This document shows, one piece after another, positions 10,045 to 42,343 of a stretch of DNA of 64,000 nucleotides. The position numbers were made by a program, and so were the translations under genes. The notes beneath the pieces were generated by a model. The model saw nothing but the letters and a program-made list of their open reading frames with translations. It made no database searches and had not been told where the DNA came from. Source of the DNA: Bacteroidales bacterium (GTDB lineage: Bacteria; Bacteroidota; Bacteroidia; Bacteroidales; UBA12077); NCBI GenBank assembly GCA_030637515.1, contig DAOWGM010000051.1:1-64000 (forward strand), in the 5' to 3' direction. Position 1 is the first letter of the stretch; every line of letters begins with the position of its first letter.

Positions 10045-10190
10045 CAGGTGCTTAATTTTATGCAAATAAACAAAACTTTGTACAGAAAATAATAACGATT
10101 TTTTTTATTCGTTTTGTTTTATAGTAATTATAGAAACGATTCCTGTTAAATTAATATTGTAATTGAAAGGATTTAAGAGTATATTTCTTC

Positions 10191-11165
10191 ATGAAAAAGG
10201 TTTTTGTAATATTTTTTTCATTAATTGTTACGCAATTATATTGTCAGGATGTTGAGTTTTCACAATATTATGCAAACCCTTTGTACTTAAATCCTGCATT
10301 TGCAGGTTCTGATAACTACACAAGAATGTCTTTAAATTACCGTGCAATTTTACCTGTTTCGTATGGTGATTACAGTACTTATAGTGCATCGGTTGATAAA
10401 TATTTTGATGGATTAAGTGGAGGAGTTGGATTTCAGGTAATGAATGACAGACAGGCTCAGGGTGTTATTAATAATCTTGGTTTTAGCTTGATTTATTCTT
10501 TTCATACGCAGATAAGAAAAAAATGGGCACTAAATACAGGTTTTAGAGTTGGATATAACTCAAAAACTTTAAATGGAAGCAACCTTGTTTATCCTGACAT
10601 GCTTGATCCTGTCGAAGGAGTCTCTGAATCGGGGATGGAATCAGGACTATACCAGAAATCTTTATACTTTGATTTTTCTTTTGGAATGCTGACATGGTAT
10701 GAGAATTATTATCTGGGAGTTTCAATTGATCATTTAACCGAACCAAAAATATCTCTTGGAAGTGATGATCCAGGTCCGATTGCAAGAAAGTATACACTTC
10801 ATGGAGGTATGGAGATTCCTTATTATAATAGTTTAAACCGAGTACACATGACATTATCACCTAATTTTATTTTTCAGATGCAAGGAGCTTCATCAAAAAT
10901 AAATTTGGGTGTATATTTAAGCAAAAATAACTTAATAGGAGGGCTTTGGGTAAAAACAAATACAAGTATTAATCTTACAGGATGTGTTTTAATGCTTGGT
11001 TATGTGACCGAAAATAGTACATTTGCTTATAGTTATGATATTCCGTTTTATATAGGAGGATTTAGTGGAATTATTTCGGGAGGACACGAAGTAACCTTTT
11101 TATATAAATTCATGTATAAAAGGAAGAGAAAAAAAATAAAGGCAATAAAATGTCCTAAAATTTAG
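10191..11165 (+). CDS. PorP/SprF-family T9SS outer-membrane protein
   Basis: Outer-membrane barrel of the PorP/SprF family, members of which pair with particular T9SS substrates or with the core machine. The 324 residues start with a signal peptide ending near C-Q, followed by the family signature F-S-Q-Y-Y-A-N-P-L-Y-L-N-P-A-F-A-G. The C-terminus carries a basic tail (K-R-K-R-K-K). It is divergent from porU (146 bases apart) and lies 73 bases before gldJ, in the neighbourhood of the T9SS attachment genes. It could be the core PorP or a cargo-specific SprF; the sequence alone does not decide. A second family member lies at 37450-38427. Confidence 0.88.
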   Translation: MKKVFVIFFSLIVTQLYCQDVEFSQYYANPLYLNPAFAGSDNYTRMSLNYRAILPVSYGDYSTYSASVDKYFDGLSGGVGFQVMNDRQAQGVINNLGFSLIYSFHTQIRKKWALNTGFRVGYNSKTLNGSNLVYPDMLDPVEGVSESGMESGLYQKSLYFDFSFGMLTWYENYYLGVSIDHLTEPKISLGSDDPGPIARKYTLHGGMEIPYYNSLNRVHMTLSPNFIFQMQGASSKINLGVYLSKNNLIGGLWVKTNTSINLTGCVLMLGYVTENSTFAYSYDIPFYIGGFSGIISGGHEVTFLYKFMYKRKRKKIKAIKCPKI

Positions 11166-23775: not shown

Positions 23776-26700
23776 ATGATGGGGAGTTATAGAAAATATA
23801 TAGGGAGAGTAGTACTATCATTCTTTTTTGCAGGAATTTATACCTCAACGTTAAACGCACAAACTGGTCCAGGAGGAGTTGGTAATTCTGATGGATCAAA
23901 CGGACAACCGGAAAATGTAATATGGTATTCTGCTAATTCTTTATTACTGTCAGATACTGATCCTGTTATTACATGGGATGATTTATCAGGTAATGCTAAT
24001 GATGCATCACAAGGTACGGGTACTGCAAGACCTTTATATCGAACAGGACAAATAAATGGATTGCCTGCAGTCGTTTTTGACGGTACTGATGATTTTATGC
24101 CATTTGATGGTAGCCTAATTGCAAATTCTGATTATACAGTAATATTTGTGGGGCAAAGAAGAACCGATGCCACAATGAGAGTTTTTCTAGGTGGTACAAC
24201 TTCTGCTACAAATCAAAATCTACATTTATATTGGAATAATAGCACTCAATTTAGAGCTCATCATTATGGAAATGACTTGCAAACTGATATGGTTGCCAAT
24301 ACTGAAACTTATTCAGGAGGAACAGATGTAACTGAATTTGGTATTTTCACAACATTGCTTTCTTCAACAGATGCAACTGATCAACGAAGGAATTATCAAA
24401 ACAATTCATTGCTCGGAAGCAGGACGAATAATGCGCAATTAAGCTCATATAATGGAGCAGCTATTGCAAGATATAACACAGGATACAATAATGTTGATGC
24501 TGCCGAAGTTATTATATTTGCTAATGCCTTAAATGACGCACAGTTACAGATAGTTTATGAATATCTTGGTGATAAATATGGTATAACAATCTTTAACGAC
24601 TTATATAGCCCAATAGCTTCGTATACATATGATATGGTAGGTATAGGAGAAGAGGCTAATGGAGAACATTCTGATGCTGTTAGTGCAGGAATGTATTTAA
24701 CTGCGCTTTCTGGATTAAATGTTGGCGATTATATTTTTACTTCTCATAATAACTTAACAAATAATAGTGCAAACTTTAGAACAGGTGCTGAAGTAACTAA
24801 TGCGGGTGCAGATAGTGCTTATAATCGATTATGGTATATTGATACTGAAGGAACGCCTGAAGCTCAATTGGCTTTCGATTTTGATGAAGCACTTGATGAT
24901 GGTTTAAATCCTACAAGTATTAGTAATTACGTTCTTTTATATAGAGCTGGAACAACAGGTGATTTTTCTATTGTAAAGAATGCAGATGGTGTAAAGAATG
25001 GTGATCAGGTTTATTTTAACTTAACTTCTGCTGAATTAAATACTGGTTATTATACTTTAGGAACAGAGAATGCAACAGATAGTCCATTAGAAGGAGTAGC
25101 TGGAAGAACATGGTACACTTTAATTTCAGGAAACTGGGGTGACTGGGAAGTGTGGACATTGGACCCTTCAGGATCATTACCAAATAACCCTGACCATTAT
25201 ACCCCTTCAACATCTCCAACAAATACTGCTGATAATGTAGTTCTTCTTACAGGAAGAACGGTTGATGTAGATACAAGTAATAATTTAACTCACGCAAGCA
25301 TCCTTATCGAAGGTAGATTAGATTTGAATGCAACTTCGGGGCATAACTTCGGAACAATTAGTGGAACAGGACGTGTTTTAATGGCTGCTGATAATTTCCC
25401 TTCTGGTGATGCTTCTCATTTTTATACAAAAGGACAAGGAGAAGGAACAGTCGAATATTATGGAGGAAGCTACAACCTTTCAACAACAAGGGAATTCTAC
25501 GATGTAGAAATAGAGCTGGATAATGCAGCAAACATTGTTACTTTACTTAATGATTATACAATCAACGGTAATTTAACAATAACAACTGGTAACTTAAAAA
25601 TAAATGATACTACCGATGATCAGCTAATTGATATGTCTGTTAGCGGAAATGTTTTAGTTGAAGCTACAGCACAAATATCTGTTGGTACAGGTAATACGTT
25701 TAACACTGGAAACTATCAAATTGGCACAGGTGTAATGCCTGAAGATGATGGTATTGATTATCACGATATTTTCCATCAATTTACAATTTATGGTAATTTT
25801 ACGAATCGAGGAACAGTTCGATTTACAAATTTAGATGCACCTGATTATAATAGTTTAGCTACAGATGGAGGAGTTACAGTTCGCTTTATGGGTGCTTCAA
25901 ACTCAGAGATAAATTTATATGATACTACCGATTTTTATAATTTAATTATTGATAAAGGAACAGATAAATCATATAAAGCAAATTTATATTCAGATAATAT
26001 AAGCTATTTCAGATTATTTGGAGCAAATAGCGTTGGTCGCTTACAAGTAGCTCCCTATTCTGCAGAAGATCCACTTATTAGAAAAGCATTATGGGTTTAC
26101 CATGGTACATTGCAGTTAAGAGGTAATATTGATATTCCTACTTTAAGTGAAGGTAATCAGGAAGGTGGAAATGGAGATTATGCAGTTGGTAAAAACGCAC
26201 GTTTCTGGATGGATGGAAGTAATGTAACTGTATACTCAACAGCTAGTACTGTTGATCAGATTACAGGTTTTACTTCTGCCGATACCTACACGGCTGATGG
26301 GGTTCAGGTTAATAGTAGTAACCAGGCGATGTCAGTATATGGTGAATTTAAAATATCTGATGGGGATTTTGGAACCAGGAATAGTGCAGGTTTTATATTT
26401 TGGGCAGCTTCTAATGCTCAAATAAAAATCGAAGGTGGAGACGTAAATGTTGCACAAATGCGAAGTGCTAATGGAGCAACAGGTATTGCATCTTACATTC
26501 AAACAGGAGGTACAGTTTTAGCACGTGGAGATGAAACAGAAGCTGGAGAATATACTGGAGCTTATCCTTTGTTCGGACTTGAGTCTACTAATGCTGTTTT
26601 CAATATGTCTGGTGGAGAAATTATACTACGTGATGAAGATGGTGATGCTGATCCTGAGTGGTATATTTCTTGTGCTGAAGGGAATTATACTGTTACTGGA

Positions 26701-29700
26701 GGTAAAGTAACAATTAATGTGCGAGATACAAGAACCGCTCAGGTATATTCTACTGCAAATTTTTGGGATTTAGAAATAAATAATAGTACTGGAAGTGGAA
26801 GTATGATTGTTGAATTAGATACAACATTAATAGTGGCTAATGACTTAACATTGAATCCTTATGTAGAGCTTGATGTAGAAGATCCTACAAGTGCTGGTTT
26901 GTATCATGATGTTTCAATTGCAAGAAACTATAGTATTGAAGAAGGTGCTACTTACACCTATGGAACAAATACAACTACATTTAATGGTTCTGAAGATGGA
27001 ACTTTTTACGTTGGACACAATGTTGACGATGGTTACGAGCAATATTTATGGAACTTAACTATTAATAAAACTCAAGGAAAAAGAATTACAGTTACTGGTG
27101 ATACTAACAAAGATCCTGACAATGTTTCTCAACAATACTATAATCGTTTACTACATGTTGTAAACGATGCAAATATTAACAGTGGTATTCTGGATCAAGG
27201 AAGGCAATCTATTAGATTATTTGCAGGAGTAAATTTAAAAAAGGATGGACAATTAGGAACATATGAACATGGGGTTACTCCAACTACAGCATATGTAATG
27301 TTCAGAGATGGAGATTTAACAATATATTCAGATAAAGATGCAGTATTTGGGAATATAAAGTTTAACTCTACAGGAACTGTTATTTTTACAAGTGATGTTT
27401 ATATAAAGAGAATTGGTTATTATGGAGGTTTATATAATATAGGTGAGCATAATTTAAAAGTTGATTATTTACATAACAGAGAGACTATAAATAACTTTGG
27501 AGTTGGAAATGGTAGTGTAACAAAAATGATTTACTCAAGTGGGAACTCATCAGATGGAGGCTTATCAATATTTGTTACAGGAAATGGAACATATACTTTT
27601 CCAGTAGGAGTAACAGGTAAATATACTCCAGCTGTTGCTGATATTACTTCCTTTGCTGATTCTGGATATGTAACAATTACTCCTGTTGATCATTATTTAT
27701 GGACACTAACAGGAGGTTCTGCGAATGTTTTAGATTATTACTGGAATCTTAAATACGAAGATTTTACGGCGAATCCTGATGTTTATTGGACATTTCATTA
27801 TAACGATGCAGATGTAGATGGAACTGAAAATCCATATCGTGCAGCTAGGGTTATTAATTATAAAACAGTAGAAAGCTTAGGTAATGGATCTGTTGATAGT
27901 GGTCTTGATGAAATTTATTATGAAAACGGTGTGCTTACATCAGGCGATTATACAGCTGGAAATCCTAGTGTATTTAATGCTACGGTTAGAACTCTTTATG
28001 CGCGTAAACATGGAGAATGGCATGATTTTACTACATGGTCAACAGATCCAGATGGAAATAGCCCATTAACAAATGTGAATCAGTTGCCAGAGCCTGGTGA
28101 TATTGTTGTAATCGGGGAAAGTACAATAAACGGAGATGAAAATAGAAATTATTCAGTTGCTGTAAGTAGTACTCATGTGGATTATGCGCCTATAAATATT
28201 GCAATGCTATGTATTTTAAGATATCAATCTGCAGAAAGTTCATTAATAACTGTCGGGCAAAATGGCGCCGATTGTAATTTTGGTTTAGTAACAAATAGAG
28301 ATCCAGACGCCGCTGATCCAGAGAGTACAGCAGATCATGCAAGTAAAATTATAGTTTCTGGGTCAAACTTGCCAAGTGGTGATTTTGGTGATTTTTTATC
28401 GGCTCCAAATACAATATGGACTTATTCTCGGGCATTCCCAGGTACTAATGCAAGTATTGATGATGATGATGGAACAACACTCTCAGAGGTATATTATGCA
28501 AGTTATACAGTTGGTAACACAATAACAGAATATCCTACACTTCAGTTCGAGTATGATGGTTATAGTGGAGGATATATAGGGTTGCCAGATGTAGATGTAA
28601 CAGTTCATGGCGATTTAAGAATGTTTAAGGATGATCATCATTTGATTTTTGGTAATGCTGCAAATGGAGATTTTACAGTTGAAAAAGATTTTGAATTTAA
28701 TGCAGGTGGAACATTTAATATTGAATTTCAAGCCACTGGTATTGCCAGAACATTAACTATAAATGGTGATATAAATTTTGATAATGAACCTACGACTCAA
28801 TTTTCTGTTGAAAATGCAGCCTCCACATTAGTTCATGCAATTAAATTACAAGAGAATGTAATCAATCCATCAGCAAGTTCAGCTTTTAATGGATATAACG
28901 GGGCAGGAAATGCAGCTATTAGTTTAGAGTTTTTTGGAGATTCAGCCTCTGTTTTTGCCGATATGACAACTGTTCCTGATTTTTATCAATTGATAATGAA
29001 TAAGGGAACAGACCAATCTTTAACTACAACAATTAATTCGGAAATTAGCTTAGGATCTGATCCTTCATCTACATCTGATTTAAAACCAATTCAAATACAA
29101 AATGGAACATTAATATTAAATAATATAAATATTGATGTTGATATTTCAACAGGAGGAGAAGATTTTAAAATACCTGCAGAAGCATGTTTGCAAGTATCAC
29201 AGGGTACAGTAAATGTTTATGGAGATGATAATGGTATTAGGCTTGATGGAAAACTGTTAATTGATGGTGGTACTGTTGATATGATTAGTGGTGCAGGCAA
29301 CGGTAATAATTATATCGAATATTCAGCTTCAGGAAGTGCTGAAATAGAAATATCTTCAGGAAATCTGTGGATAGGGTCTCAAATTAGAAGATCATTAATT
29401 ACCGAAGAGGGAATATTGTCGTTTAATCAGTCTGGTGGGGAAGTGCAATTGGGTGTTAATAATGGAGGTGATGATGAAAGATCAATATTTGAAATATTAA
29501 ATGTAGGAAGTTTGTTTACTCATTCTGCAGGCGATTTTTATATTGTAAACGATTATAGAGGTGGAGCAAGTATTGCAACAATGTATTTTAATCCTGAAAC
29601 AGCTATCTTATCTTCAAATACAGTAATACAGTTTGGACATACGAGTACAACTGCTGGAAATGGGAACTTTACATTATATGCTGGAAATTTTTTAATGAAT

Positions 29701-32700
29701 CTTACTGTGAATACCACAAATTCACCAACATTAACTTTAGACGTTGTTTCTTTAACACTTGATGAGGATATAACAATTAATGCAAACTCTGAATTTGATG
29801 CAAACGGATTAGATGTAAATTTAAACGGTGATTTTATAAATAGTGGAACTTTTACTCCAAATCTAAATAATGCATATTTCCTTGGAAGTACTGCACAGCA
29901 AATTACAGGAGCTACAACATTCTGGAATCTACATAAAACTACTGCAAATGCTTTAACATTAAACAATGATATAGATGTTGATAATGAACTACATCTCGAT
30001 GATGGAATATTAGATGATGGTGATAATACTTTAAGTGTTCATGGAAATGTTTGGATGGATATTACACATACCTATGGAGGAACAAGTAATGGTATTTTAT
30101 TAAATGGTAATGTAAAACAGGTCTTAACGGGTAACGGAACTTTCGGAAAACTTTCAATTAATAATAGTTTTGACGTCTCATTACCTCCTGGAAGTGAATT
30201 TACAATTAATAATGCTTTGCAGCTTGAGAGTGGTGTTTTGGATATAGGAAAGAATTTGTTGGTTTTAGATAACGATGCAATAATTATTGAAGAAAATGCA
30301 TTTTCTGAATCGAATATGATTCAAACAAATACTTCATTTACTGATGCCGGTGTAAAGAAATATTTTCCTGCAATTGTACCTGCTGATAATTATAATTTTA
30401 TTTATCCTATGGGGTCCGAAGGAAAATATACTCCCGTAGAGCTTGTAATTGACTCGGTTGGTGCAGGAGGTTTTATTAGAGTTAAAGGAGCTAATGAAAT
30501 GCATCCAACAATTATTAATGATACTGAACCTTGTAATGAAATTGCTGACACTGCTAATGTTCTTAAGTATCACTGGCTCATGGAGGCAAGTGGAATTAGT
30601 GGCTTTGATGCAACTGCAAGTATGAAGTATTATATCGAAGATTATCAGGAAAATTCTGCATTTTATGATGTAACGCATTATATAGCTGCCAGATTATTAT
30701 GGGGAAGTACACAATGGAATAAGTATGATCAGGCAAGTTTCGATGAAGGTAATACATTATTACGTTTTAGTTTTACAAATGACGATGATGATGGAGTTAG
30801 TGGCGATTATACTGCAGGAATAGAAGATCAGGGAGGAACATGTGAAGGTGCTATTCCTGATGAGGTACAGGCTTATATAAGTATTCAGAATGGGAATTGG
30901 ACTGATGCGTCTACTTGGGATACTTATCCTGTTTTGGGGGGAGTTATACCTGCAAACGGACCAAGAGGTTCTATAGCCATTATTGAACATGAAGTTACTA
31001 TTCCAAGTAATTATATTGTAAATTACAAAGCAACAATTAATGCTACCGGTCTTTTAAAAGTGGGAACAACATTTGGTCACAGATTAGGTATTGTTGAAGG
31101 AGCAGGGACATTGCAACTCGAAAGAGGAGATATGCCTGCAGGTATTTATGATGACTTCTTTAGCAGAAGCGGAGGAACAATTGAATTTACAGGTACAAAT
31201 GATTATGATGTTTTAAGTGAAGTTACACATGTAAGAAATCTTAAATTTACAGGAACAGGCGAAAGAAGATTGCCAAATCTTGATTTTGAAGTATATGGTA
31301 TATTAACAATTGCTGGTGATGATGCTTTTCTTGAAGTAATTAATGAGCACGATCGTAATATGACATTGGATAGTAATGTCGTATTTACTCAGGGAAGTTA
31401 CGATGCCGGGCTTGATCCATCTAAAGTGATTATGAACGGTACTTCTAATCAAACAATTACTGGTGATTTTACAGACCCTAATGAGTTTATGAATTTTGAA
31501 ATGAATAATGCTCAGGGAGTTACATTGCTCGGAGATGTTGAGGTTGATGGTGAGCTTAATTTCATTACAGGTGTTATTACAACAAGCGCAGCTAATATAT
31601 TAACCATTGATAATGCTTCTATGACTGCTGTTACATCTGTTCCAGGTTATAATAGTTCAAATTATGTCGATGGACCAATGATAAAACTAATAAATAGTGG
31701 AGATGATTTTGTTTTTCCTGTAGGTGATGATGGACGTTATGGTGAGCTTGTTTTAACTGTTGCAACTGCTACTTCAGCAGATTATTGGGAAGCTGAATAT
31801 TACGATGCAGATCCAGATTTACATGTTCCTTCTTCAATGGATACAAGTAGTCGCGCAGGTGCATTAGAGATGATAAGTGGTAACGAATATTGGAGAATTG
31901 ACGGTCCTGAGGCAACAAGTTCTTCAGAAGTAACTATTCGTTGGGATGGACAAAGTCAATTGCCAGCAATGTCATCAGATGCAGATAGGGAAACTAATTT
32001 GAAATTAGTTGAGTGGTCTGGAGCAATATGGAATGTAGTTGGTAGTGATGTTAATGATATTAGTGTAAATCAAGGTACAATTAAATCAGATGCTACAAGA
32101 ACTTTAGAGGAACATTTTTATACTATTGGTACTGAAGAAGCAGCTCCATTGGCAACAGCAACATTTACAAGTACCGATACAACAATCTGTTCCGATGGAT
32201 CAGCAAGTTTGGTTGTTGATTTAACAGGTACTGCCGATTGGGAAATAGATGTTTCTGTTGATGGAGGACCAGTAACAACTTATCCTACAAGTTCGAGCCC
32301 TTACACATTAACACCTGCTGTAACAACGGCTGGTACTTATTCTATTACTGAAGTTAGAGATAATAATGGTACAACACCGGGAACTGTTTTTGGTAGTGAT
32401 GTTATATTAACAGTAATCACAGTTCCAAATTCAACTTATAGTATAACACCTTCGGTTCCAACTTCATATTGTACTGGAGATCCGGGAGTTGCTATTGGCC
32501 TTGATGATTCTGATCTTGGTGTAACTTACCAGTTATTATTAAATGGAAATCCTGATGGAGCTCCTGTAGCTGGTGATGGCGATGATATTTCATTTGGAAA
32601 TAGAACTGTAGCAGGTCCGTATACTGTAGAAGCAACAGATGATTTAGATGTAACAGGAGCATGTTCTGAGATAATGTCAGGAACCCTTGTGTTATCTATT

Positions 32701-33066
32701 GATCCACTGCCAATGGCAAATGATCAGACTCCTGCAAATATTTGTTCAAGTGTGGGAGGTGAAAATGCACAGGCTGTTGTTGATTTAACGGCTCTCGAGA
32801 CAACGAGTATAAATACAGATTCTTCAGGAGACAAATTTGAATGGTTTACCGATGCAGCTCTAGCAAATGATGTTACACTAACTGCAAATGCACAAACAAT
32901 TGCAAAAACAATAAATGGTGGTGCATACTCTGCAACAGAAGACTTTTATTGTGTTGTAACCTTAATTGCAACAGGGTGTTCTGATGTTGCAACGGTTACT
33001 TATACTTTATACAGAACTCCTGAAACTGGACCAGAGTATCATATTGATAGTAACTGGGGGAATTAA
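23776..33066 (+). CDS. Giant secreted surface protein with lectin-like and beta-helix-like domains and TGP-YHI-W tail
   Basis: A 3096-residue exported protein (signal peptide to about residue 29, ending N-A-Q). Residues about 45-240 look like a concanavalin A/LamG-type lectin domain (V-I-W-Y-S-A-N-S-L, then W-D-D-L-S-G-N-A-N-D-A). A beta-sandwich region follows to about 430. Three long modules each open with a G-x-W-x-x-x-x-x-W motif (near 447, 1415 and 2360; e.g. G-N-W-T-D-A-S-T-W) and continue as short repetitive strands rich in G, N, T and D, as in parallel beta-helices. Ig-like domains occupy about 2790-2970. The last 110 residues match those of the next gene, ending T-G-P-E-Y-H-I-D-S-N-W-G-N. 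No usual T9SS type A or B sorting domain is visible. Likely an adhesin; ligand unknown. Confidence 0.85.
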   Translation: MMGSYRKYIGRVVLSFFFAGIYTSTLNAQTGPGGVGNSDGSNGQPENVIWYSANSLLLSDTDPVITWDDLSGNANDASQGTGTARPLYRTGQINGLPAVVFDGTDDFMPFDGSLIANSDYTVIFVGQRRTDATMRVFLGGTTSATNQNLHLYWNNSTQFRAHHYGNDLQTDMVANTETYSGGTDVTEFGIFTTLLSSTDATDQRRNYQNNSLLGSRTNNAQLSSYNGAAIARYNTGYNNVDAAEVIIFANALNDAQLQIVYEYLGDKYGITIFNDLYSPIASYTYDMVGIGEEANGEHSDAVSAGMYLTALSGLNVGDYIFTSHNNLTNNSANFRTGAEVTNAGADSAYNRLWYIDTEGTPEAQLAFDFDEALDDGLNPTSISNYVLLYRAGTTGDFSIVKNADGVKNGDQVYFNLTSAELNTGYYTLGTENATDSPLEGVAGRTWYTLISGNWGDWEVWTLDPSGSLPNNPDHYTPSTSPTNTADNVVLLTGRTVDVDTSNNLTHASILIEGRLDLNATSGHNFGTISGTGRVLMAADNFPSGDASHFYTKGQGEGTVEYYGGSYNLSTTREFYDVEIELDNAANIVTLLNDYTINGNLTITTGNLKINDTTDDQLIDMSVSGNVLVEATAQISVGTGNTFNTGNYQIGTGVMPEDDGIDYHDIFHQFTIYGNFTNRGTVRFTNLDAPDYNSLATDGGVTVRFMGASNSEINLYDTTDFYNLIIDKGTDKSYKANLYSDNISYFRLFGANSVGRLQVAPYSAEDPLIRKALWVYHGTLQLRGNIDIPTLSEGNQEGGNGDYAVGKNARFWMDGSNVTVYSTASTVDQITGFTSADTYTADGVQVNSSNQAMSVYGEFKISDGDFGTRNSAGFIFWAASNAQIKIEGGDVNVAQMRSANGATGIASYIQTGGTVLARGDETEAGEYTGAYPLFGLESTNAVFNMSGGEIILRDEDGDADPEWYISCAEGNYTVTGGKVTINVRDTRTAQVYSTANFWDLEINNSTGSGSMIVELDTTLIVANDLTLNPYVELDVEDPTSAGLYHDVSIARNYSIEEGATYTYGTNTTTFNGSEDGTFYVGHNVDDGYEQYLWNLTINKTQGKRITVTGDTNKDPDNVSQQYYNRLLHVVNDANINSGILDQGRQSIRLFAGVNLKKDGQLGTYEHGVTPTTAYVMFRDGDLTIYSDKDAVFGNIKFNSTGTVIFTSDVYIKRIGYYGGLYNIGEHNLKVDYLHNRETINNFGVGNGSVTKMIYSSGNSSDGGLSIFVTGNGTYTFPVGVTGKYTPAVADITSFADSGYVTITPVDHYLWTLTGGSANVLDYYWNLKYEDFTANPDVYWTFHYNDADVDGTENPYRAARVINYKTVESLGNGSVDSGLDEIYYENGVLTSGDYTAGNPSVFNATVRTLYARKHGEWHDFTTWSTDPDGNSPLTNVNQLPEPGDIVVIGESTINGDENRNYSVAVSSTHVDYAPINIAMLCILRYQSAESSLITVGQNGADCNFGLVTNRDPDAADPESTADHASKIIVSGSNLPSGDFGDFLSAPNTIWTYSRAFPGTNASIDDDDGTTLSEVYYASYTVGNTITEYPTLQFEYDGYSGGYIGLPDVDVTVHGDLRMFKDDHHLIFGNAANGDFTVEKDFEFNAGGTFNIEFQATGIARTLTINGDINFDNEPTTQFSVENAASTLVHAIKLQENVINPSASSAFNGYNGAGNAAISLEFFGDSASVFADMTTVPDFYQLIMNKGTDQSLTTTINSEISLGSDPSSTSDLKPIQIQNGTLILNNINIDVDISTGGEDFKIPAEACLQVSQGTVNVYGDDNGIRLDGKLLIDGGTVDMISGAGNGNNYIEYSASGSAEIEISSGNLWIGSQIRRSLITEEGILSFNQSGGEVQLGVNNGGDDERSIFEILNVGSLFTHSAGDFYIVNDYRGGASIATMYFNPETAILSSNTVIQFGHTSTTAGNGNFTLYAGNFLMNLTVNTTNSPTLTLDVVSLTLDEDITINANSEFDANGLDVNLNGDFINSGTFTPNLNNAYFLGSTAQQITGATTFWNLHKTTANALTLNNDIDVDNELHLDDGILDDGDNTLSVHGNVWMDITHTYGGTSNGILLNGNVKQVLTGNGTFGKLSINNSFDVSLPPGSEFTINNALQLESGVLDIGKNLLVLDNDAIIIEENAFSESNMIQTNTSFTDAGVKKYFPAIVPADNYNFIYPMGSEGKYTPVELVIDSVGAGGFIRVKGANEMHPTIINDTEPCNEIADTANVLKYHWLMEASGISGFDATASMKYYIEDYQENSAFYDVTHYIAARLLWGSTQWNKYDQASFDEGNTLLRFSFTNDDDDGVSGDYTAGIEDQGGTCEGAIPDEVQAYISIQNGNWTDASTWDTYPVLGGVIPANGPRGSIAIIEHEVTIPSNYIVNYKATINATGLLKVGTTFGHRLGIVEGAGTLQLERGDMPAGIYDDFFSRSGGTIEFTGTNDYDVLSEVTHVRNLKFTGTGERRLPNLDFEVYGILTIAGDDAFLEVINEHDRNMTLDSNVVFTQGSYDAGLDPSKVIMNGTSNQTITGDFTDPNEFMNFEMNNAQGVTLLGDVEVDGELNFITGVITTSAANILTIDNASMTAVTSVPGYNSSNYVDGPMIKLINSGDDFVFPVGDDGRYGELVLTVATATSADYWEAEYYDADPDLHVPSSMDTSSRAGALEMISGNEYWRIDGPEATSSSEVTIRWDGQSQLPAMSSDADRETNLKLVEWSGAIWNVVGSDVNDISVNQGTIKSDATRTLEEHFYTIGTEEAAPLATATFTSTDTTICSDGSASLVVDLTGTADWEIDVSVDGGPVTTYPTSSSPYTLTPAVTTAGTYSITEVRDNNGTTPGTVFGSDVILTVITVPNSTYSITPSVPTSYCTGDPGVAIGLDDSDLGVTYQLLLNGNPDGAPVAGDGDDISFGNRTVAGPYTVEATDDLDVTGACSEIMSGTLVLSIDPLPMANDQTPANICSSVGGENAQAVVDLTALETTSINTDSSGDKFEWFTDAALANDVTLTANAQTIAKTINGGAYSATEDFYCVVTLIATGCSDVATVTYTLYRTPETGPEYHIDSNWGN

Positions 33067-33254
33067 AAATATTTATAAAATAATATGATTTTTGATTTTT
33101 TTATGAGAATGGGTTTTACGAAGTTTGATATTTACATATATATATAAATTTACATATATGAAACTTTTTGCTTGAAAATCAGGTATAAGAATAGATATAA
33201 AGTTCATATAGGATGAATAAAAGAAAGATATTCAACTAAAGGATAAATTGAGAC

Positions 33255-34703
33255 ATGAAAAAATATTTGATTCTTGTATTGTTTTTAGCTTACACACTTA
33301 GTGCTGGTGCGCAATACGTATCAGATACAGATGGTGGTGAGTGGTCCGATAATGCTACATGGACAGGTACTGCACCTCCATATACTGATGTCGCATTTGA
33401 TGTTACGATAAGTTCTTATGTTACCAGTGACCAGTCAATTACTTTTTCAGGCTTGGGTAGTAATAAAGATACCTTTACCATTGATGATACACTTATTATC
33501 TATGGTGATCTTACTATGGGTTTAGACGATGATTTTGTTGTAACTGCAAATGCGGTGCTTATTATTTTCGGAAATTTTACTGCTGTTAATAAAGCAACAA
33601 TTGAAAATGGTGGTTATTTTGTTGTATTAGGTGATTTTACTATGACAGGAGGAGCACAGACTTCTTATGATAATACAGGTGATGGTCAGACATATGTTAC
33701 TGGAGATGTGGACGTTTCGGGTGTAGGGGGAGGTGGAATTCCTGAATTGGATTGTGATCCTGATGTTGAGGAATGTGGATATGGTGATGCAAGTGATATT
33801 ATTGATGATCCAATCTGGGATTTTATAGATGAAATTGATGATGGAGTATCTTGCAGCTTATCTGCTTCAGGTACTGCAACTGACGAATCAGCAGTGGGAG
33901 TCGGTGATGGTGCAATTGATTTAACAATAACCAGCTCAGGAAATCCTGATGTGGAATGGTATTTAGATGGAGCCTTTTATAGTGTTAGCCTTGCTATAAC
34001 AGATTTAAACAACGATGGAGATATTTCTGGATTATCGTCTGGAAATTATGAAGTATTTATTACTGAAGGATTTTGTACGGTTTCTTTATCGTTTACTGTT
34101 TCTGTAGCTTGTACTCCTCCAACAATAACCGGAACAACTCCTGCTTCCAGATGTGGAACAGGCACAGTTAATTTGGGTGCTACTGCATCAGCAGGTACTA
34201 TTAACTGGTATGATGTTGCAACTGGAGGTGCTTCTCTGGGAACAGGAACCAGTTTTACAACTCCTTCAATTTCAGCAACAACTACCTATTATGTTGATGC
34301 TACTGATGCTGGTTGCACAACCGCAGCAAGAACGGCTGTAATAGCAACAGTTAATGCATTGCCAACAGCAAATGATCAAAATCCCGAAGTGTGTTCAGCT
34401 GTCGCTGGAGAAAGTGCTTCTGCACTAGTAAATCTCACATTACTTGAAGCTTCAATTAACGGAGGTGGAGGAATAACATACACCTGGTATTCAGATGCAG
34501 CTTTGTCTATAAATATTACAGCAACTGCTAATGCACAAACTATTGTAAAAACAATAAATGGAGGAGCAGTTTCAGCAACAGAAGATTATTATTGTGTTGT
34601 TAGTGACGGTACATGTACTGATGTTGCAACCATTACATATTTAATTTACAGAACACCTGATACAGGACCTCAGCATCATATTGATGATACTTGGGGAAAC
34701 TAA
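33255..34703 (+). CDS. Secreted surface protein with G8-like start, Ig-like domain and TGP-YHI-W tail
   Basis: 482 residues with a signal peptide (MKKYLILVLFLAYTLSAGAQ). The mature N-terminus repeats the G-x-W-S-D-N-A-T-W opening seen in the giant protein's modules and continues as a short beta-helix-like stretch to about residue 150. An acidic linker follows (residues about 165-200), then an Ig-like domain (T-I-T-G-T-T-P-A-S-R-C, about 295-375). The last 110 residues are a close copy of the end of the giant protein, including A-N-A-Q-T-I-V-K-T-I-N-G-G-A and the end T-G-P-Q-H-H-I-D-D-T-W-G-N. This suggests duplication within the locus. Role unknown; likely part of the same surface structure. 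Confidence 0.85.
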   Translation: MKKYLILVLFLAYTLSAGAQYVSDTDGGEWSDNATWTGTAPPYTDVAFDVTISSYVTSDQSITFSGLGSNKDTFTIDDTLIIYGDLTMGLDDDFVVTANAVLIIFGNFTAVNKATIENGGYFVVLGDFTMTGGAQTSYDNTGDGQTYVTGDVDVSGVGGGGIPELDCDPDVEECGYGDASDIIDDPIWDFIDEIDDGVSCSLSASGTATDESAVGVGDGAIDLTITSSGNPDVEWYLDGAFYSVSLAITDLNNDGDISGLSSGNYEVFITEGFCTVSLSFTVSVACTPPTITGTTPASRCGTGTVNLGATASAGTINWYDVATGGASLGTGTSFTTPSISATTTYYVDATDAGCTTAARTAVIATVNALPTANDQNPEVCSAVAGESASALVNLTLLEASINGGGGITYTWYSDAALSINITATANAQTIVKTINGGAVSATEDYYCVVSDGTCTDVATITYLIYRTPDTGPQHHIDDTWGN

Positions 34704-34779
34704 TTAAATGTATAATGATAATTGAATAATGTTACCGGTTAAACTTTGAAAGTTGTAGTTGTTTTAATTATAACTGTTC

Positions 34780-34826
34780 TCCCTTGAGGGAGATGCCAAA
34801 GGCAGAGGGTGAAAGAAGTTGTTAAA
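34780..34826. repeat. Palindromic element CTCCCTTGAGGGAG with flanking A/G-rich arm
   Basis: CTCCCTTGAGGGAG is a near-perfect 14-base palindrome (arms CTCCCT/AGGGAG with a two-base TG... centre), followed by GATGCCAAAGGCAGAGGGTG. Its base composition stands out from the AT-rich gap. It has the look of a dispersed intergenic repeat, but recurrence cannot be tested here. Confidence 0.4.
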
Positions 34827-35104
34827 GTGAGTAAATAAGGAAATTAAATTGTAAAAAATGCAACAAAAGACTTATTAACATTATGATAATTGAACCTGTA
34901 TTTAAAAATAGAATTGTTAATAAACAAGCCTTTGTGAATAGAGAGATTTATATAAAAAACTATATTTTAGTATCTGTCTAACTGGTTGATTGTTATAATA
35001 TTTTGAAAAGCTAAGGGTTTACTGAAACAAATAAAGTAAATATCAGTAAAATAAAAGTATTCATGTATAGAAAAAGGAGTTTTATAAAATCACATTTGGC
35101 ACTA

Positions 35105-35156
35105 ATCATTAAAAATGATACTTTTACAGACTTTAAAATTGAGTCTGTCAAAAGTA
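35105..35156. other. Stem-loops in the leader of the 319-residue surface protein
   Basis: A small hairpin ATCATT-AAA-AATGAT (35105-35119) is followed by a long one: TACTTTTACAGACT (35119-35132) pairs with AGTCTGTCAAAAGTA (35142-35156) with one bulged C. No T-run follows, so it is not a plain terminator. It lies about 130 bases before the ATG at 35285. The rest of the 34704-35284 gap is AT-rich with no open reading frame of note. Confidence 0.5.
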
Positions 35157-35284
35157 TATTATATATTGAAACTATGTAGATGTTTAAGCGTTAAACAACT
35201 AAAACCAAAAAACTGTATTATAGACTGACAATTAATTAAATACAGAAAAAATTAAAAACAAATACTAACTTAAACTTTGAGATC

Positions 35285-36244
35285 ATGAAAAAAATGAACT
35301 TTTTAAAAATTACACTAACTTTTGTGTTAGCATTAGCAGCTTCGGGTGCTTTTGCTCAGGCTTCAGATGTAGTAGGTGATGGAGCTAGCTTCGCTGCAAA
35401 TTATGAGACAGCAGGTCAGGCTACTGTAGGTACTACTTACATTATGGAAGGAACTACAGTTCCGATATTTGCATTACCGGATACTTATTTTCACCCATTG
35501 TATAACAATACAACAGAAGTTTATACTTTAAATGCTGCTGGTTTTACTTGGGTATGGACAGAGGCAACTGCAACATTAACAATTACTCAACCTAATGGTG
35601 CTAGTGATAACTATGTTACAGTAGCAGCACCTGCGGCTTCTGCTGGTGCTTATACAATTAATGTACTTGAAACTGCTCCTCTAGCATGGGGTTCTTGTGA
35701 CGATGGTGCTGGTGAAGATATTACTGTAAATGTTGTTACTGCGCCTGATATTACATTAGGTGGTACTTCTACAAATAGTTATTGTGAAGCAAGTGCTCCT
35801 GCAGCTGTTAATGCTACAATTTCTGGTGGTTGGCTGAATTATCGTGCAGTTTGGTCTTTAGAGATTAGAACGCTGAATGCTGATGGTAGTTTAAAAAATC
35901 TTTATGATAATGATCAGGTTACTATTGGTGGTCCTTTAGCTGAATCTTATACAGCACTTAATCCTGATGTAGCATTAGTTACTGCAGCTAATGATATTAC
36001 TCCTGTGTTAGGTTTTGTTGTTATTGATGCAAGTGCAACTGTTTATACTTATACTATGACAAGTGTAAACGACCAGGCATCACGTTACGGTGAGTTTTTA
36101 GCCCAGTTAGGTGTCGAAGGTCCTAATGATGGATTTGTTTATTACAAGTCTGCAGCAGCAGAAACTGTAACTATTAGAATTAATCCAGAACCAAATACAG
36201 GACCAATTTATCATATCAACAGTGCTTGGTCTGATAACATTTAA
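35285..36244 (+). CDS. Small secreted surface protein with TGP-YHI-W tail
   Basis: 319 residues with a clear signal peptide (K-K-M-N-F-L-K-I-T-L... to A-F-A-Q, about 25 residues). The mature protein is rich in Ala, Thr and Val with predicted beta-strands and few lysines; two Cys (in S-C-D-D-G and Y-C-E-A-S) may be structural. I recognise no known domain. It ends N-T-G-P-I-Y-H-I-N-S-A-W-S-D-N-I, the same tail as the two preceding proteins. A long 5' gap with stem-loops and a strong terminator after the stop mark it as its own transcription unit, perhaps highly expressed. It could be the major subunit of a surface structure; this is inference. Confidence 0.8.
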   Translation: MKKMNFLKITLTFVLALAASGAFAQASDVVGDGASFAANYETAGQATVGTTYIMEGTTVPIFALPDTYFHPLYNNTTEVYTLNAAGFTWVWTEATATLTITQPNGASDNYVTVAAPAASAGAYTINVLETAPLAWGSCDDGAGEDITVNVVTAPDITLGGTSTNSYCEASAPAAVNATISGGWLNYRAVWSLEIRTLNADGSLKNLYDNDQVTIGGPLAESYTALNPDVALVTAANDITPVLGFVVIDASATVYTYTMTSVNDQASRYGEFLAQLGVEGPNDGFVYYKSAAAETVTIRINPEPNTGPIYHINSAWSDNI

Positions 36245-36273
36245 TATTGAGTTTTTAACTTAATACATAATTC

Positions 36274-36307
36274 AAAACTGGTTCAGGATTTTTCCTGAAC
36301 CGGTTTT
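36274..36307 (+). terminator. Strong terminator-like hairpin after the 319-residue gene
   Basis: Fifteen base pairs: AAAACTGGTTCAGGA (36274-36288) with TCCTGAACCGGTTTT (36293-36307), one G-T pair and a four-base T loop. The A/T ends of the stem supply the T-tract on both strands. Confidence 0.8.
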
Positions 36308-36331
36308 AAACAAAAAAAATAAGATTGCAGA

Positions 36332-36374
36332 AAGTGCTAAGCGCCCCGATTTTATCGGGATTCGCTAAGCACTT
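36332..36374. repeat. Imperfect 20-bp inverted repeat with CCCGAT/ATCGGG core
   Basis: AAGTGCT-A-AGCG...CCCGAT on the left and ATCGGG...CGCT-A-AGCACTT on the right form a long hairpin with one mismatch and an asymmetric bulge around a TTT loop. It sits 27 bases before the TTG start of the following gene. The GC-rich core contrasts with its surroundings; a REP-like element or a regulatory hairpin are both possible. Confidence 0.5.
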
Positions 36375-36400
36375 ATAAACAAACAAAAGCATAACCAAAA

Positions 36401-37408
36401 TTGAAATATTTAAATAAAATATTATCCTTTTTATTTTTCCTGGTAATTTTATCGGGTTTTAATAGTTATGCTCAAACTTTACCTGTTGCTTGTGGCGATG
36501 GGGAGGTAATGTATGGAGTTGTTGGTGATAATGGAAACTCTACATTTTATTGGGAGGTTACAGGAGGTACATTTATTGATTATAACGACTCTATTTTAGT
36601 TACATGGAATGATGTTGCCGGAATGCACTATATAAAGGTAACAGAAGAAAATATTTATGGTTGTATTGGTGAACAACTTGTTGATTCTGTTATTGTAACA
36701 ATCCCTTTTGTAGATGTTGGTCTTGATGCTGAAATTTGTCAAGGCGAATCGTATACATTCGAGGCTGATGCTTCTACTGTTTCTTTTTATTTATGGGAAG
36801 ACGGTAGTACCGGTGAAACATTTATTGCTACTATTAGTGGTGATTATTGGGTTCGGGTTGAAGACGCAAACGGATGTACAGCTGCGGATACAGCAGCATT
36901 AATAGCACATGAATTACCAATAGTAGATTTAGGACCAGATACAACACTTAGTGATGATGCAAGTAGCATTTTGTTTGATGTTTATAATGACGGTGCAATT
37001 TATGATTGGTTTAATGGAGATATATCTTCATCTTATACTGCTTATGCCCAGACTATTGATCAGGAAATATGGGTTAATGTAACCAGTGATTTTGGTTGTG
37101 TTGCTACAGATACAGTTGTTGTTCGTTCTTATGGTGAAATTGAGATACCAACCGCATTTACTCCAAATGATGATGGAATAAATGATGTTTGGGAGATTGA
37201 ACAATTATTTGTTTTTGATAAGGTAACTGTAGATGTTTATAACAGATGGGGCGAAAGAGTTTTCCACTCGGATGGTTATACAGCAGATCAGTATTGGAAT
37301 GGAACAAATGCAAAAGGTAAAAAGTTGCCAATGGATGCTTATTATTATGTAATAGATCTACATAATGATGAAGAACCTATAGTAGGTACAGTAACAATAA
37401 TTAGATAG
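36401..37408 (+). CDS. Secreted protein with CHU_C / T9SS type B sorting domain
   Basis: 335 residues starting with TTG: an in-frame TAA at 36392 rules out a longer frame, no ATG occurs before the mature region, and the signal peptide (K-Y-L-N-K-I-L-S-F-L... S-Y-A-Q) begins at the TTG. Two PKD/Ig-like domains follow (about 25-100 and 105-190). From about 250 the type B sorting domain is clear: I-P-T-A-F-T-P-N-D-D-G-I-N-D-V-W, V-D-V-Y-N-R-W-G-E-R-V-F and Y-Y-Y-V-I-D-L. Such proteins are secreted by T9SS and depend on a partner SprF protein, here encoded 41 bases downstream. It may anchor the preceding tail-bearing proteins on the surface; that is inference. Confidence 0.9.
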   Translation: MKYLNKILSFLFFLVILSGFNSYAQTLPVACGDGEVMYGVVGDNGNSTFYWEVTGGTFIDYNDSILVTWNDVAGMHYIKVTEENIYGCIGEQLVDSVIVTIPFVDVGLDAEICQGESYTFEADASTVSFYLWEDGSTGETFIATISGDYWVRVEDANGCTAADTAALIAHELPIVDLGPDTTLSDDASSILFDVYNDGAIYDWFNGDISSSYTAYAQTIDQEIWVNVTSDFGCVATDTVVVRSYGEIEIPTAFTPNDDGINDVWEIEQLFVFDKVTVDVYNRWGERVFHSDGYTADQYWNGTNAKGKKLPMDAYYYVIDLHNDEEPIVGTVTIIR

Positions 37409-37449
37409 ATACTTGGAAATCTCAATGAGATTAACTTGTTTTGTGTGAA

Positions 37450-38427
37450 ATGAAAAGAAAATTAATAATATTATTTGTCATATGCTTGACTGCAATTCCT
37501 GCTTTATCACAGCAGGAACCTGTTTTTAGTCAGTATACGATGAATCAATTTCTTATTAATCCTGCTTTTGCAGGTAGCGAGGGTTTTACATCCTTCAATT
37601 TAACTGCTCGTCAACAATGGCTTGGTTTTGAAGATGCCCCAATGACACAGGCGATTAGTGGACAAACTCGAATTACTAAAACCAGTTATGTAGCAAAATC
37701 ACGTTCAGTAAGAAAACGAACAAAAAAACGTCGTCCAAGTGGAAAAATTGGTTTAGGCGGATATTTATATAATGATCAGAACGGACCAATAGGAAGAACA
37801 GGTTTGGAGGTTTCTTATGCATATCATTTATTTGTTGGTGACGGACAACTTTCATTGGGATTGTCACTGTCAGCATATCAGTTTAGAGTAAATACCAGTG
37901 AATTAGTAACCGCAGATGAAAATGATCCTTTGTTAAGTCAGGCACGGGAAAGCATGTTTATACCGGATGGTTCTGTTGGTGTTTTTTACATGTATCAGCC
38001 ATTTTATGTGGGATTATCAGCAAAAAATTTATTTCAGGCAGCAATTAAATTTGGTGGAGACAATAGTTTTAGTGATTATCAGCAGGTTCGTCATTATTAT
38101 TTAACTTCGGGATATAAGTACGATATGCGAAATGATTTCGAAATAGAACCTTCTATTTTAATGAAAACAACAGAAGCATTTAATTTGCAGGTAGATGTAT
38201 CTGTAAAGGGTTATTATAAAAGAGATTACTGGCTTGGATTTTCATACAGAACAGGAAATGCATTTATTACAATGGTTGGTGTGAAAGTAGACAAACTATA
38301 TTTTGGTTATGCATTTGATTATTCTTTAAACGATATCCAAAGAATTAGTTACGGTTCACACGAAATAATGATAGGATTGAAGTTCGGTGATAGTAATAAA
38401 AGATATCGTTGGTTAAATAGATTCTAA
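37450..38427 (+). CDS. PorP/SprF-family outer-membrane protein paired with the type B protein
   Basis: Outer-membrane barrel of 325 residues with a signal peptide (MKRKLIILFVICLTAIPALS). The family signature F-S-Q-Y-T-M-N-Q-F-L-I-N-P-A-F-A-G-S follows at once. An internal basic stretch (S-V-R-K-R-T-K-K-R-R-P, residues about 84-94) is unusual and probably lies in a loop. I use the ATG at 37450 rather than the TTG nine bases upstream. SprF proteins are needed for secretion of type B substrates in F. johnsoniae, and the gene order (adhesins, type B protein, SprF) mirrors sprB-type loci. Confidence 0.92.
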   Translation: MKRKLIILFVICLTAIPALSQQEPVFSQYTMNQFLINPAFAGSEGFTSFNLTARQQWLGFEDAPMTQAISGQTRITKTSYVAKSRSVRKRTKKRRPSGKIGLGGYLYNDQNGPIGRTGLEVSYAYHLFVGDGQLSLGLSLSAYQFRVNTSELVTADENDPLLSQARESMFIPDGSVGVFYMYQPFYVGLSAKNLFQAAIKFGGDNSFSDYQQVRHYYLTSGYKYDMRNDFEIEPSILMKTTEAFNLQVDVSVKGYYKRDYWLGFSYRTGNAFITMVGVKVDKLYFGYAFDYSLNDIQRISYGSHEIMIGLKFGDSNKRYRWLNRF

Positions 38428-40957: not shown

Positions 40958-42343
40958 TTAGAAAGTTAAAGTAAAAGTAGTACCTCCGTGCCTGCCCTGC
41001 CCGTCCGGCAGGCGGGCGGCAGGCAGGTTATCTACTTCTGAAATTGCAGTTATTGAACCTCCGTGTAATCGCATAATTTGTTTCGAGAGGCTTAATCCAA
41101 TACCAGAACCTTTTGGTTTTGTTGTGAAGAATGGAATAAAAATCTTATCCAGTACTTCTTTCAAAATGCCTTGCCCGTTATCAGATACCTGAATTGTAAC
41201 TCTACCACGTTTATTATAAAATGCTTTTACATGAATAGCAGGTTTTTCTCTATTTTCAAGCGCATGAATAGCATTTTTAACCAAGTTAATCAGCACTTGT
41301 TCTATTAGTTTTGTATCAGCATTAACCTCAATAGACTCAGGGCTCGCATTAGTTTCAAATTGTATGTTATTATCCTTAATCTCTTCTTTCAATAAAAGTT
41401 GAATATCGCTAAATAGATCTATTATTTTTGCAACCTTAAAATTAGGTTTTGGAATCTTAGTTAGGTTCCTGTAAGTGTTAACAAAATGCAACAATCCATT
41501 ACTTCTATTATTTATTGTTCTTATTGCTGTATGTACTTCTTCTATTGATTCTTTATCGGGCAGAGTATCATTATTTTTAGCATCTTTAAATATTAAATCT
41601 AAAGAAGAAGTAATAGAAGAAATGGGTGTAATTGAATTCATTATTTCATGTGTAAGTACACGAATTAACTTCTGCCAGCTTTCTGTTTCTTGATCTTCAA
41701 GTACACTTTGAATATTCTTTATTGTAACAAGTTTAATGCTTTTGTTAAGAATTTTAAATTCGGTACCTGATACTGCCAACTGCAATATATCATCTTCTTC
41801 CTGAATTTTTACCAAACAACTTTTCCCAGGTTCAAATTTTAATAGTGTATCAACCAATTCAGGACTAATGGCTTTTAAATCATGAATATTTTTTACTGTA
41901 TTAACCTGAAAAAGTTTTTTGAAAGCATGGTTAACCATATCAACAGTTCCATCGTTTTGATAAGTGATTATACTAACATCAATATTTTTAACGAGGTTCT
42001 GGAAATACTGGTACTGTTCTTCTTTTTCAGATCGTACTTTCTGAAAATCCTGAATAACATCGTTAAAAGCTTTATTAAGTTCATCGAATGATGATCCCAT
42101 TCCTTCAATCTTAAACGATCTGGTAAACTCAGAAAACCGTATTGATTCAAGAAAGCTGGCAAGGTCTCGGTTTGTTTTATCGAGATATTTAAATATTAGA
42201 TAAATCTGGAATACTATTATTAATCCTATTAAAAAAGGCGTAATAAGATATTCTAATGTAAGTGTATAGAAAAAAAGAAATATTGTTGCTGTTAACAACA
42301 ATATTCTGAATATAGCAACAAATCTGAAATTTTTAAAGACCAT
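40958..42343 (-). CDS. Sensor histidine kinase (NtrY-like) paired with the NtrC-type regulator
   Basis: 461 residues: two membrane helices (about 9-27 and 31-50), a juxtamembrane segment, a PAS-like region (about 110-215), then the kinase core. The H-box is V-L-T-H-E-I-M-N-S-I-T-P near residue 230, the N-box I-N-L-V-K-N-A-I-H-A-L, G1 V-S-D-N-G-Q-G-I and G2 G-S-G-I-G-L-S-L. The short periplasmic part suggests it senses membrane or internal signals. Near the C-terminus 13 residues (L-P-A-A-R-L-P-D-G-Q-G-R-H, residues 440-452) are encoded by a GC-rich palindrome inserted in frame. Its start overlaps the regulator gene by 11 bases. Confidence 0.92.
   Translation of the reverse strand: MVFKNFRFVAIFRILLLTATIFLFFYTLTLEYLITPFLIGLIIVFQIYLIFKYLDKTNRDLASFLESIRFSEFTRSFKIEGMGSSFDELNKAFNDVIQDFQKVRSEKEEQYQYFQNLVKNIDVSIITYQNDGTVDMVNHAFKKLFQVNTVKNIHDLKAISPELVDTLLKFEPGKSCLVKIQEEDDILQLAVSGTEFKILNKSIKLVTIKNIQSVLEDQETESWQKLIRVLTHEIMNSITPISSITSSLDLIFKDAKNNDTLPDKESIEEVHTAIRTINNRSNGLLHFVNTYRNLTKIPKPNFKVAKIIDLFSDIQLLLKEEIKDNNIQFETNASPESIEVNADTKLIEQVLINLVKNAIHALENREKPAIHVKAFYNKRGRVTIQVSDNGQGILKEVLDKIFIPFFTTKPKGSGIGLSLSKQIMRLHGGSITAISEVDNLPAARLPDGQGRHGGTTFTLTF
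40987..41027. repeat. GC-rich palindromic element inserted in the kinase gene
   Basis: About 41 bases made almost only of CCTGCC/GGCAGG words (core CCGTCCGGCAGGCGGGC) stand in AT-rich DNA. The element keeps the reading frame (39 bases, 13 residues) between D-N and G-G-T-T-F-T-L-T-F. This is typical of a dispersed palindromic repeat that entered a coding sequence. Confidence 0.7.

Follow-up and report, generated by a model that had tools for sequence, protein, structure and literature searches.

The window analysed here, a stretch of 64,000 nucleotides (64 kb) of Bacteroidales DNA taken at its full length, contains a row of five genes on the + strand, which we call p1 to p5. The first three encode secreted proteins, whose signal peptides were read by eye. 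The product of p1 (23776..33066) is a giant protein of 3096 residues with an Ig-like C-terminal region and no T9SS C-terminal domain (CTD), p2 (33255..34703) encodes 482 residues with Ig_7 domains, and p3 (35285..36244) encodes 319 residues arranged as two Ig-like domains (about 47-157 and 158-301) plus a tail. They are followed by p4 (36401..37408), a 335-residue T9SS type B protein with three Ig-like domains and a CHU_C/TIGR04131 CTD, and by p5 (37441..38427), an outer-membrane protein of the PorP/SprF family and the presumed shuttle or anchor of p4. The successive intergenic gaps measure 188, 581, 156 and 32 bases. The gap between p2 and p3 holds a palindromic CCCTTGAGGGAGAT...AGGCAGAGGG element (34781-34809) that is present as a single copy in the window; its 14-mers recur in six other loci, some of them copies of the same place.

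The type B assignment of p4 is based on its matches to CHU_C (81.9 bits) and TIGR04131 (65.7 bits) together with the adjoining PorP/SprF gene, and p5 matches TIGR03519 with 277.9 bits, in agreement with the original prediction of a type B protein and an SprF after the three secreted proteins. A conserved C-terminal domain is described as a feature of T9SS substrates (PMC12618676). Such a domain had been predicted to be missing from p1, p2 and p3, and no match to TIGR04183, PF13585 or TIGR04131 was obtained for any of them: none of the 56 TIGR04183 (type A) matches of the genome lies within 23776-36244, and among the window proteins tested p4 is the sole one matching PF13585/TIGR04131. These two profiles were likewise without a match in the last 300 residues of ten chosen tailed proteins from relatives. 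Pfam gave a single sub-threshold Ig match in p1, Ig_7 (described as CHU_C-associated) in p2 and no match in p3, and NCBIfam at E<=1 gave no match for these three proteins.

The genome as a whole encodes the SprA translocon (PF14349, 571.8 bits), seven PorP/SprF genes and 15 CHU_C matches, 12 of them over the cut-off. In three further type B/PorP loci read in this genome, it is the large protein (2387, 1204 and 1969 residues) that bears the CTD. The operon of p1 to p5, in which large chains lacking a CTD stand next to a short chain that has one, therefore looks like a split version of that arrangement. Elsewhere in the window there is a second PorP/SprF paralogue (10194-11111, 198.7 bits) with no CHU_C match beside it, and a 1279-residue protein on the - strand (6226-10065) with a weak C-terminal type A match (31.7 bits, over the cut-off). 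A G+C-rich palindrome, CCTGCCTGCCGCCCGCCTGCCGGACGGGCAGGGCAGGC (40990-41027, - strand), lies in frame near the 3' end of a histidine kinase gene (40958-42343); among orthologues of this kinase, one carries a similar insertion at the site (L058), two carry variants (L054, L061) and two are shorter (L051, L052).

In place of a CTD, p1, p2 and p3 share a short C-terminal tail: P-E-TGPEYHIDSNWGN in p1 (33019..33063), P-D-TGPQHHIDDTWGN in p2 (34656..34700) and P-N-TGPIYHINSAWSDNI in p3 (36191..36241), all on the + strand. The complete ends are PETGPEYHIDSNWGN, PDTGPQHHIDDTWGN and PNTGPIYHINSAWSDNI, respectively, and the three ends quoted in the original prediction could all be read from the sequence. 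The additional stretch said to precede the tails of p1 and p2 is indeed shared: the two proteins are homologous over their C-terminal ~148 residues (53% identity), more than the 95 that had been given. The significant alignment between p2 and p3 is limited to the 22 C-terminal residues that make up the tail, so the alignments place the longer homology between p1 and p2, with p3 not included.

The core of the tail is P-x-T-G-P-x-Y-H-I-x-N, with single-position exceptions, and the final W, which had been counted as part of the motif, lies outside it. A terminal aromatic residue (W, F or Y) is found in most p3 tails; it is missing from several of the larger proteins and from operons in which the tails end with HIPNK, HLPNN or a similar sequence. 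Substitutions within the core include TGPIYTI (L110) and TGEIYHV (L111, L112). The pattern GGNCCNNNNYAYCAYATH has three matches in the window, where shuffles give an expectation of 0.02, and ACNGGNCCNNNNYAYCAYATH has three in the entire assembly (4,125,633 bases, 91% complete), all of them at p1 to p3, with zero matches for the reversed control. The tail is thus confined to one operon although the genome has its 56 type A matches and seven PorP/SprF genes.

A scan of 25 genomes of the family gave 22 pattern matches in 12 genomes, again with no match for the reversed control. Twenty of these matches, from ten genomes, are C-terminal in long frames and precede the stop by 11-14 codons; the other two (L012 and L019), whose frames have 19 and 27 codons, are chance matches. 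Besides the genome of the window, nine of 19 genomes of the same genus have genuine matches. Since some nearly complete genomes of this genus (G012, G015, G016 and G017) show none, the system, or the exact form of its tail, is patchy in distribution.

We then considered the gene neighbourhood of p3 in relatives. A scan of named genomes with a p3 profile, in which PxTGPIYHI was required, retrieved 34 loci, 33 of them titled Bacteroidales or other Bacteroidota; an isolate, Perlabentimonas gracilis (L096), is among those with the module. The remaining locus, titled Acidobacteriota (L085), is a 4.7-kb contig with the usual p3, type B and PorP/SprF genes, and is likely a mis-binned contig. Downstream of p3, on its strand, 33 of the 34 loci have a type B gene, and a PorP/SprF gene is present in 32, as the predicted linkage to SprF implied; the loci where a module gene is missing (L090, L092) lie at contig ends. 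Most of the genes are direct neighbours, exceptions including a PorP/SprF gene 5 kb further away (L067) and a gap of 1.4 kb between p3 and the type B gene (L084). An upstream tailed protein is also present in 17 of the 34 loci (L066, L067, L068, L070-L074, L076-L078, L082-L084, L087, L093 and L099), and none was flagged in seven loci with 6-10 kb of upstream sequence (L079, L089-L092, L096 and L097). Considering that many loci have p3 without a larger tailed protein, the core is formed by p3, p4 and p5, to which larger tailed proteins may or may not be added. The module in relatives consists of one or more small tailed proteins, a small type B (CHU_C) protein and a PorP/SprF protein, often preceded by larger tailed proteins.

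The end of p5, KRYRWLNRF (38398-38424), is a second conserved C-terminal tail in the same operon. A loose pattern of this end, RRYRWLNR(F/Y), is matched by 46 ORFs from related loci, and some of these loci represent one and the same place; one other PorP/SprF protein ends in RMRWLHR (L146), and the six PorP/SprF paralogues of the genome end otherwise than p5.

Given that PxTGPIYHI was required in the first scan, a p3 profile was built without the tail (A2, 31 sequences) and used to search 247 genomes of the order. Matches were found in 23 genomes, with 28 distinct ORFs at >=30 bits, some of which overlap the training rows of the profile (e.g. the window itself, G006 and G176). The tail was scored as the number of the nine core residues found within the last 25 positions. 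By this score, 27 of the 28 ORFs carry a C-terminal tail with 5-9 of the nine core residues, against 2-4 in the best stretch elsewhere in the same ORFs. The exact PxTGPIYHI is absent from 21 of the 28, and 20 of those still score 5-8. The exception is a 205-residue protein of G080 (L123), which ends in LQIQHD. In this genome (L169, 839-4091) the 205-residue protein and an 880-residue protein ending in ILIEHD precede a small type B-like protein. The arrangement is the same, and from these ends it seems that the proteins of the G080 operon share a different tail of their own. The surroundings of p3 were read afresh in 18 of the 23 genomes: a type B gene follows in all 18 and a PorP/SprF gene in 15. 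As for the regions that lack the latter, one is a contig end (L156), and two have none next door though the contig continues (L147, L148).

The tails could simply be the final strand of ordinary Ig domains, or leftovers of gene duplication. As this explanation would have it, the C-termini of p1 and p2 clearly go back to a duplication, and Ig and PKD domains abound in the carriers examined. However, p3 has no significant similarity to p2 outside the last 22 residues, and p3 proteins stripped of the tail are 19-52% identical to that of the window, so that the tail persists in otherwise divergent proteins, as had been proposed. The coding DNA also differs in almost every copy: TGPIYHI is encoded by 32 different 21-base sequences among 36 p3 tails, which indicates that selection acts on the peptide. 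Across 25 larger tailed proteins, P, T, G, P, Y, H and I show an entropy of 0-1 bit, against 2-3 bits in most of the preceding columns; for the 36 p3 tails the value at these positions is 0, partly owing to the way these sequences were selected.

The AlphaFold2 model of p3 (31 sequences, mean pLDDT 77) points in the same direction. It displays two Ig-like domains ending near residue 301, and its structural matches mostly cover residues 47-302. Beyond the final strand of the second Ig domain, the tail forms a coil and one helical turn (pLDDT of only 74, then 61), outside both domains in this single-chain model, in agreement with the expectation that it is not an ordinary Ig strand. Taken with the divergence of the bodies, this makes an origin as an Ig strand or duplication remnant improbable. 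Nor is the motif mainly internal, a point on which the original prediction was open to refutation: P.TG..[YH]H[IVL] has no internal copy in 495 ORFs (48 loci and part of the window). The predicted C-terminal position and tie to the type B/PorP-SprF operon are both supported, and the tail is a real, conserved C-terminal tag that in these samples is confined to one type of Bacteroidales operon. None of five motif strings of the tail was mentioned in the literature searched, and the tag is apparently undescribed so far.

The P-x-T-G of most tails also recalls the LPXTG cell-wall signals of sortases, in which a membrane segment follows the motif near the C-terminus. The tail might accordingly be a site that a sortase-like enzyme cuts or transfers; in the T9SS the enzyme of this kind is PorU. 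Unlike LPXTG signals, the tails have neither a hydrophobic segment nor a basic end after the motif, p1, p2 and p3 ending 11-13 residues after TG. The residues after TG are conserved to about the same degree as those before it, and some tails have T-Q-P or T-S-P instead of T-G-P. In addition, the best sortase (PF04203) match in the 91%-complete assembly reaches 12.5 bits against a cut-off of 26.6. We regard processing by a sortase-like enzyme as very improbable.

The tails fall into two subtypes according to the protein that carries them. The p3 subtype is PxPxTGP(I/V)YHI, with I or V after TGP. The larger proteins mostly show (R/K)xPxTGP(Q/E/V/A..)YHI: the residue after TGP is Q in 14 of 25 and V, E, A or others in the rest, usually with (R/K)-x-P-x before it. 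Where p3-like genes occur in tandem (G172, G141 and G192, and similarly G088 and G061), the first ends like TG(P/V/K)(I/V)YH(I/L)xN and the second, nearer the type B gene, like PTPxT(Q/S)PI(R/K/Q)HI(K/Q/E)N. In one region of G061 (L144, 1-17839) six secreted-type proteins with related but different ends stand in a row before the type B and PorP/SprF genes. The first, cut by the start of the region, ends in TGPLYRKPNN and is followed by a 3295-residue protein ending in TGPMYRQPNQ; the four small proteins end in TGPVYHLPNN, TTGTINHVAP, PKTYHIKNK and EPKIIHLRDLNKK, the last two being alike only by eye. The type of tail thus tracks the position in the operon, which fits a subunit-specific docking function better than a common export signal. 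Between the last residues of the p3 tails and those of the giant proteins of the same operon, no clear covariation was seen by eye.

From the anatomy of the proteins and the linkage of their genes only, we infer that P-x-T-G-P-x-Y-H-I-x-N(-x-W/F/Y) may well be a docking (assembly) peptide at the C-termini of the subunits of a split type B T9SS surface structure, a reading to which we give about an even chance. The tails would bind another subunit, and p1, p2 and p3 would reach the surface together with p4. Having signal peptides and no known T9SS signal of their own, these three proteins would each fit the tail, placed after the last Ig domain, into a neighbouring subunit of the same operon, and ultimately into p4. 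This protein alone would bear the type B signal, and p5 would carry it to the outer membrane and hold it there. The tail might be inserted as an added strand, since in an extended conformation Y, I and the terminal W/F/Y would lie on one face. The model of p4 (pLDDT 87) comprises the three Ig-like domains and the CTD. It speaks against docking that the first Ig domain of p4 (mean entropy 1.82) is hardly more conserved than the others (1.94 and 1.87), so that no docking site stands out. Donor-strand pili, both of the chaperone-usher kind and the type V pili of Bacteroidales, are built from separate Ig-like subunits with a terminal peptide. By analogy, the tailed operon may resemble them in its Ig-like subunits and in a terminal peptide that varies with operon position. 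More tentatively, these operons could encode a multi-subunit surface filament of Bacteroidales, in which Ig subunits without a CTD are joined by position-specific tails that plug into the next subunit and are exported and anchored through the single type B subunit and PorP/SprF, the T9SS cargo travelling or assembling as a complex; this we hold to be possible and somewhat doubtful.

The main rival to a docking tag is a new, minimal T9SS sorting signal read directly by p5, with p1, p2 and p3 as independent substrates. It would account for the C-terminal position of the tail in proteins that have signal peptides (by eye) and no type A or B CTD, and for the frequent linkage to PorP/SprF. The PorP/SprF proteins are reported to act as dedicated carriers that keep their type B substrates bound (PMC12635249, PMC9143113, PMC12618676), and one such shuttle serves three substrates in Flavobacterium johnsoniae (PMC12618676). 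On the other hand, type B CTDs are reported to have five motifs within the last 100 residues, each needed for the secretion of SprB CTD fusions (PMC12618676), which speaks against a minimal signal of the approximately 11 residues shared here. Furthermore, the stretches before the tail differ between p2 and p3, the tails within one operon differ by position, and L147 and L148 have tails and a type B gene with no adjacent PorP/SprF gene. A direct sorting signal is therefore conceivable, if not the reading we would expect to hold.

Known type B systems share parts of this organization. As in SprB-SprF of F. johnsoniae and PG1035-PorP of Porphyromonas gingivalis, a type B CTD, here that of p4, is encoded beside a PorP/SprF gene. 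In those systems the surface protein itself bears the CTD (PMC9143113, PMC12618676), whereas here the small p4 has it, and the neighbours of p4 that lack a CTD carry a separate tail. The best solved relative of p4 by profile is the grappling hook protein GhpA of Aureispira (PDB 9flp and others), with E 2.8e-117 over 19 stretches, the match covering Ig-like repeats and the CTD; GhpA fragments also take the first five places among the fold matches of p4, with TM-scores of only about 0.4. GhpA is one chain of 5898 residues, in contrast to the separate genes with tails found here. The locus does not encode an adhesin of the GhpA kind, with Ig repeats and a type B CTD in one long chain, since p4 has 335 residues and p1 has no CTD.

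The tailed module is a new variant within the T9SS type B systems, in which a set of secreted proteins beside a type B/PorP-SprF pair carries a tag of about 11 residues instead of a conserved CTD. If the tag docks these proteins on one signal-bearing subunit, the T9SS can deliver or build structures made of several chains; if the tag is itself the signal, it is far shorter than the T9SS signals reported. Either way, it provides a handle for finding unrecognised surface proteins of Bacteroidales.
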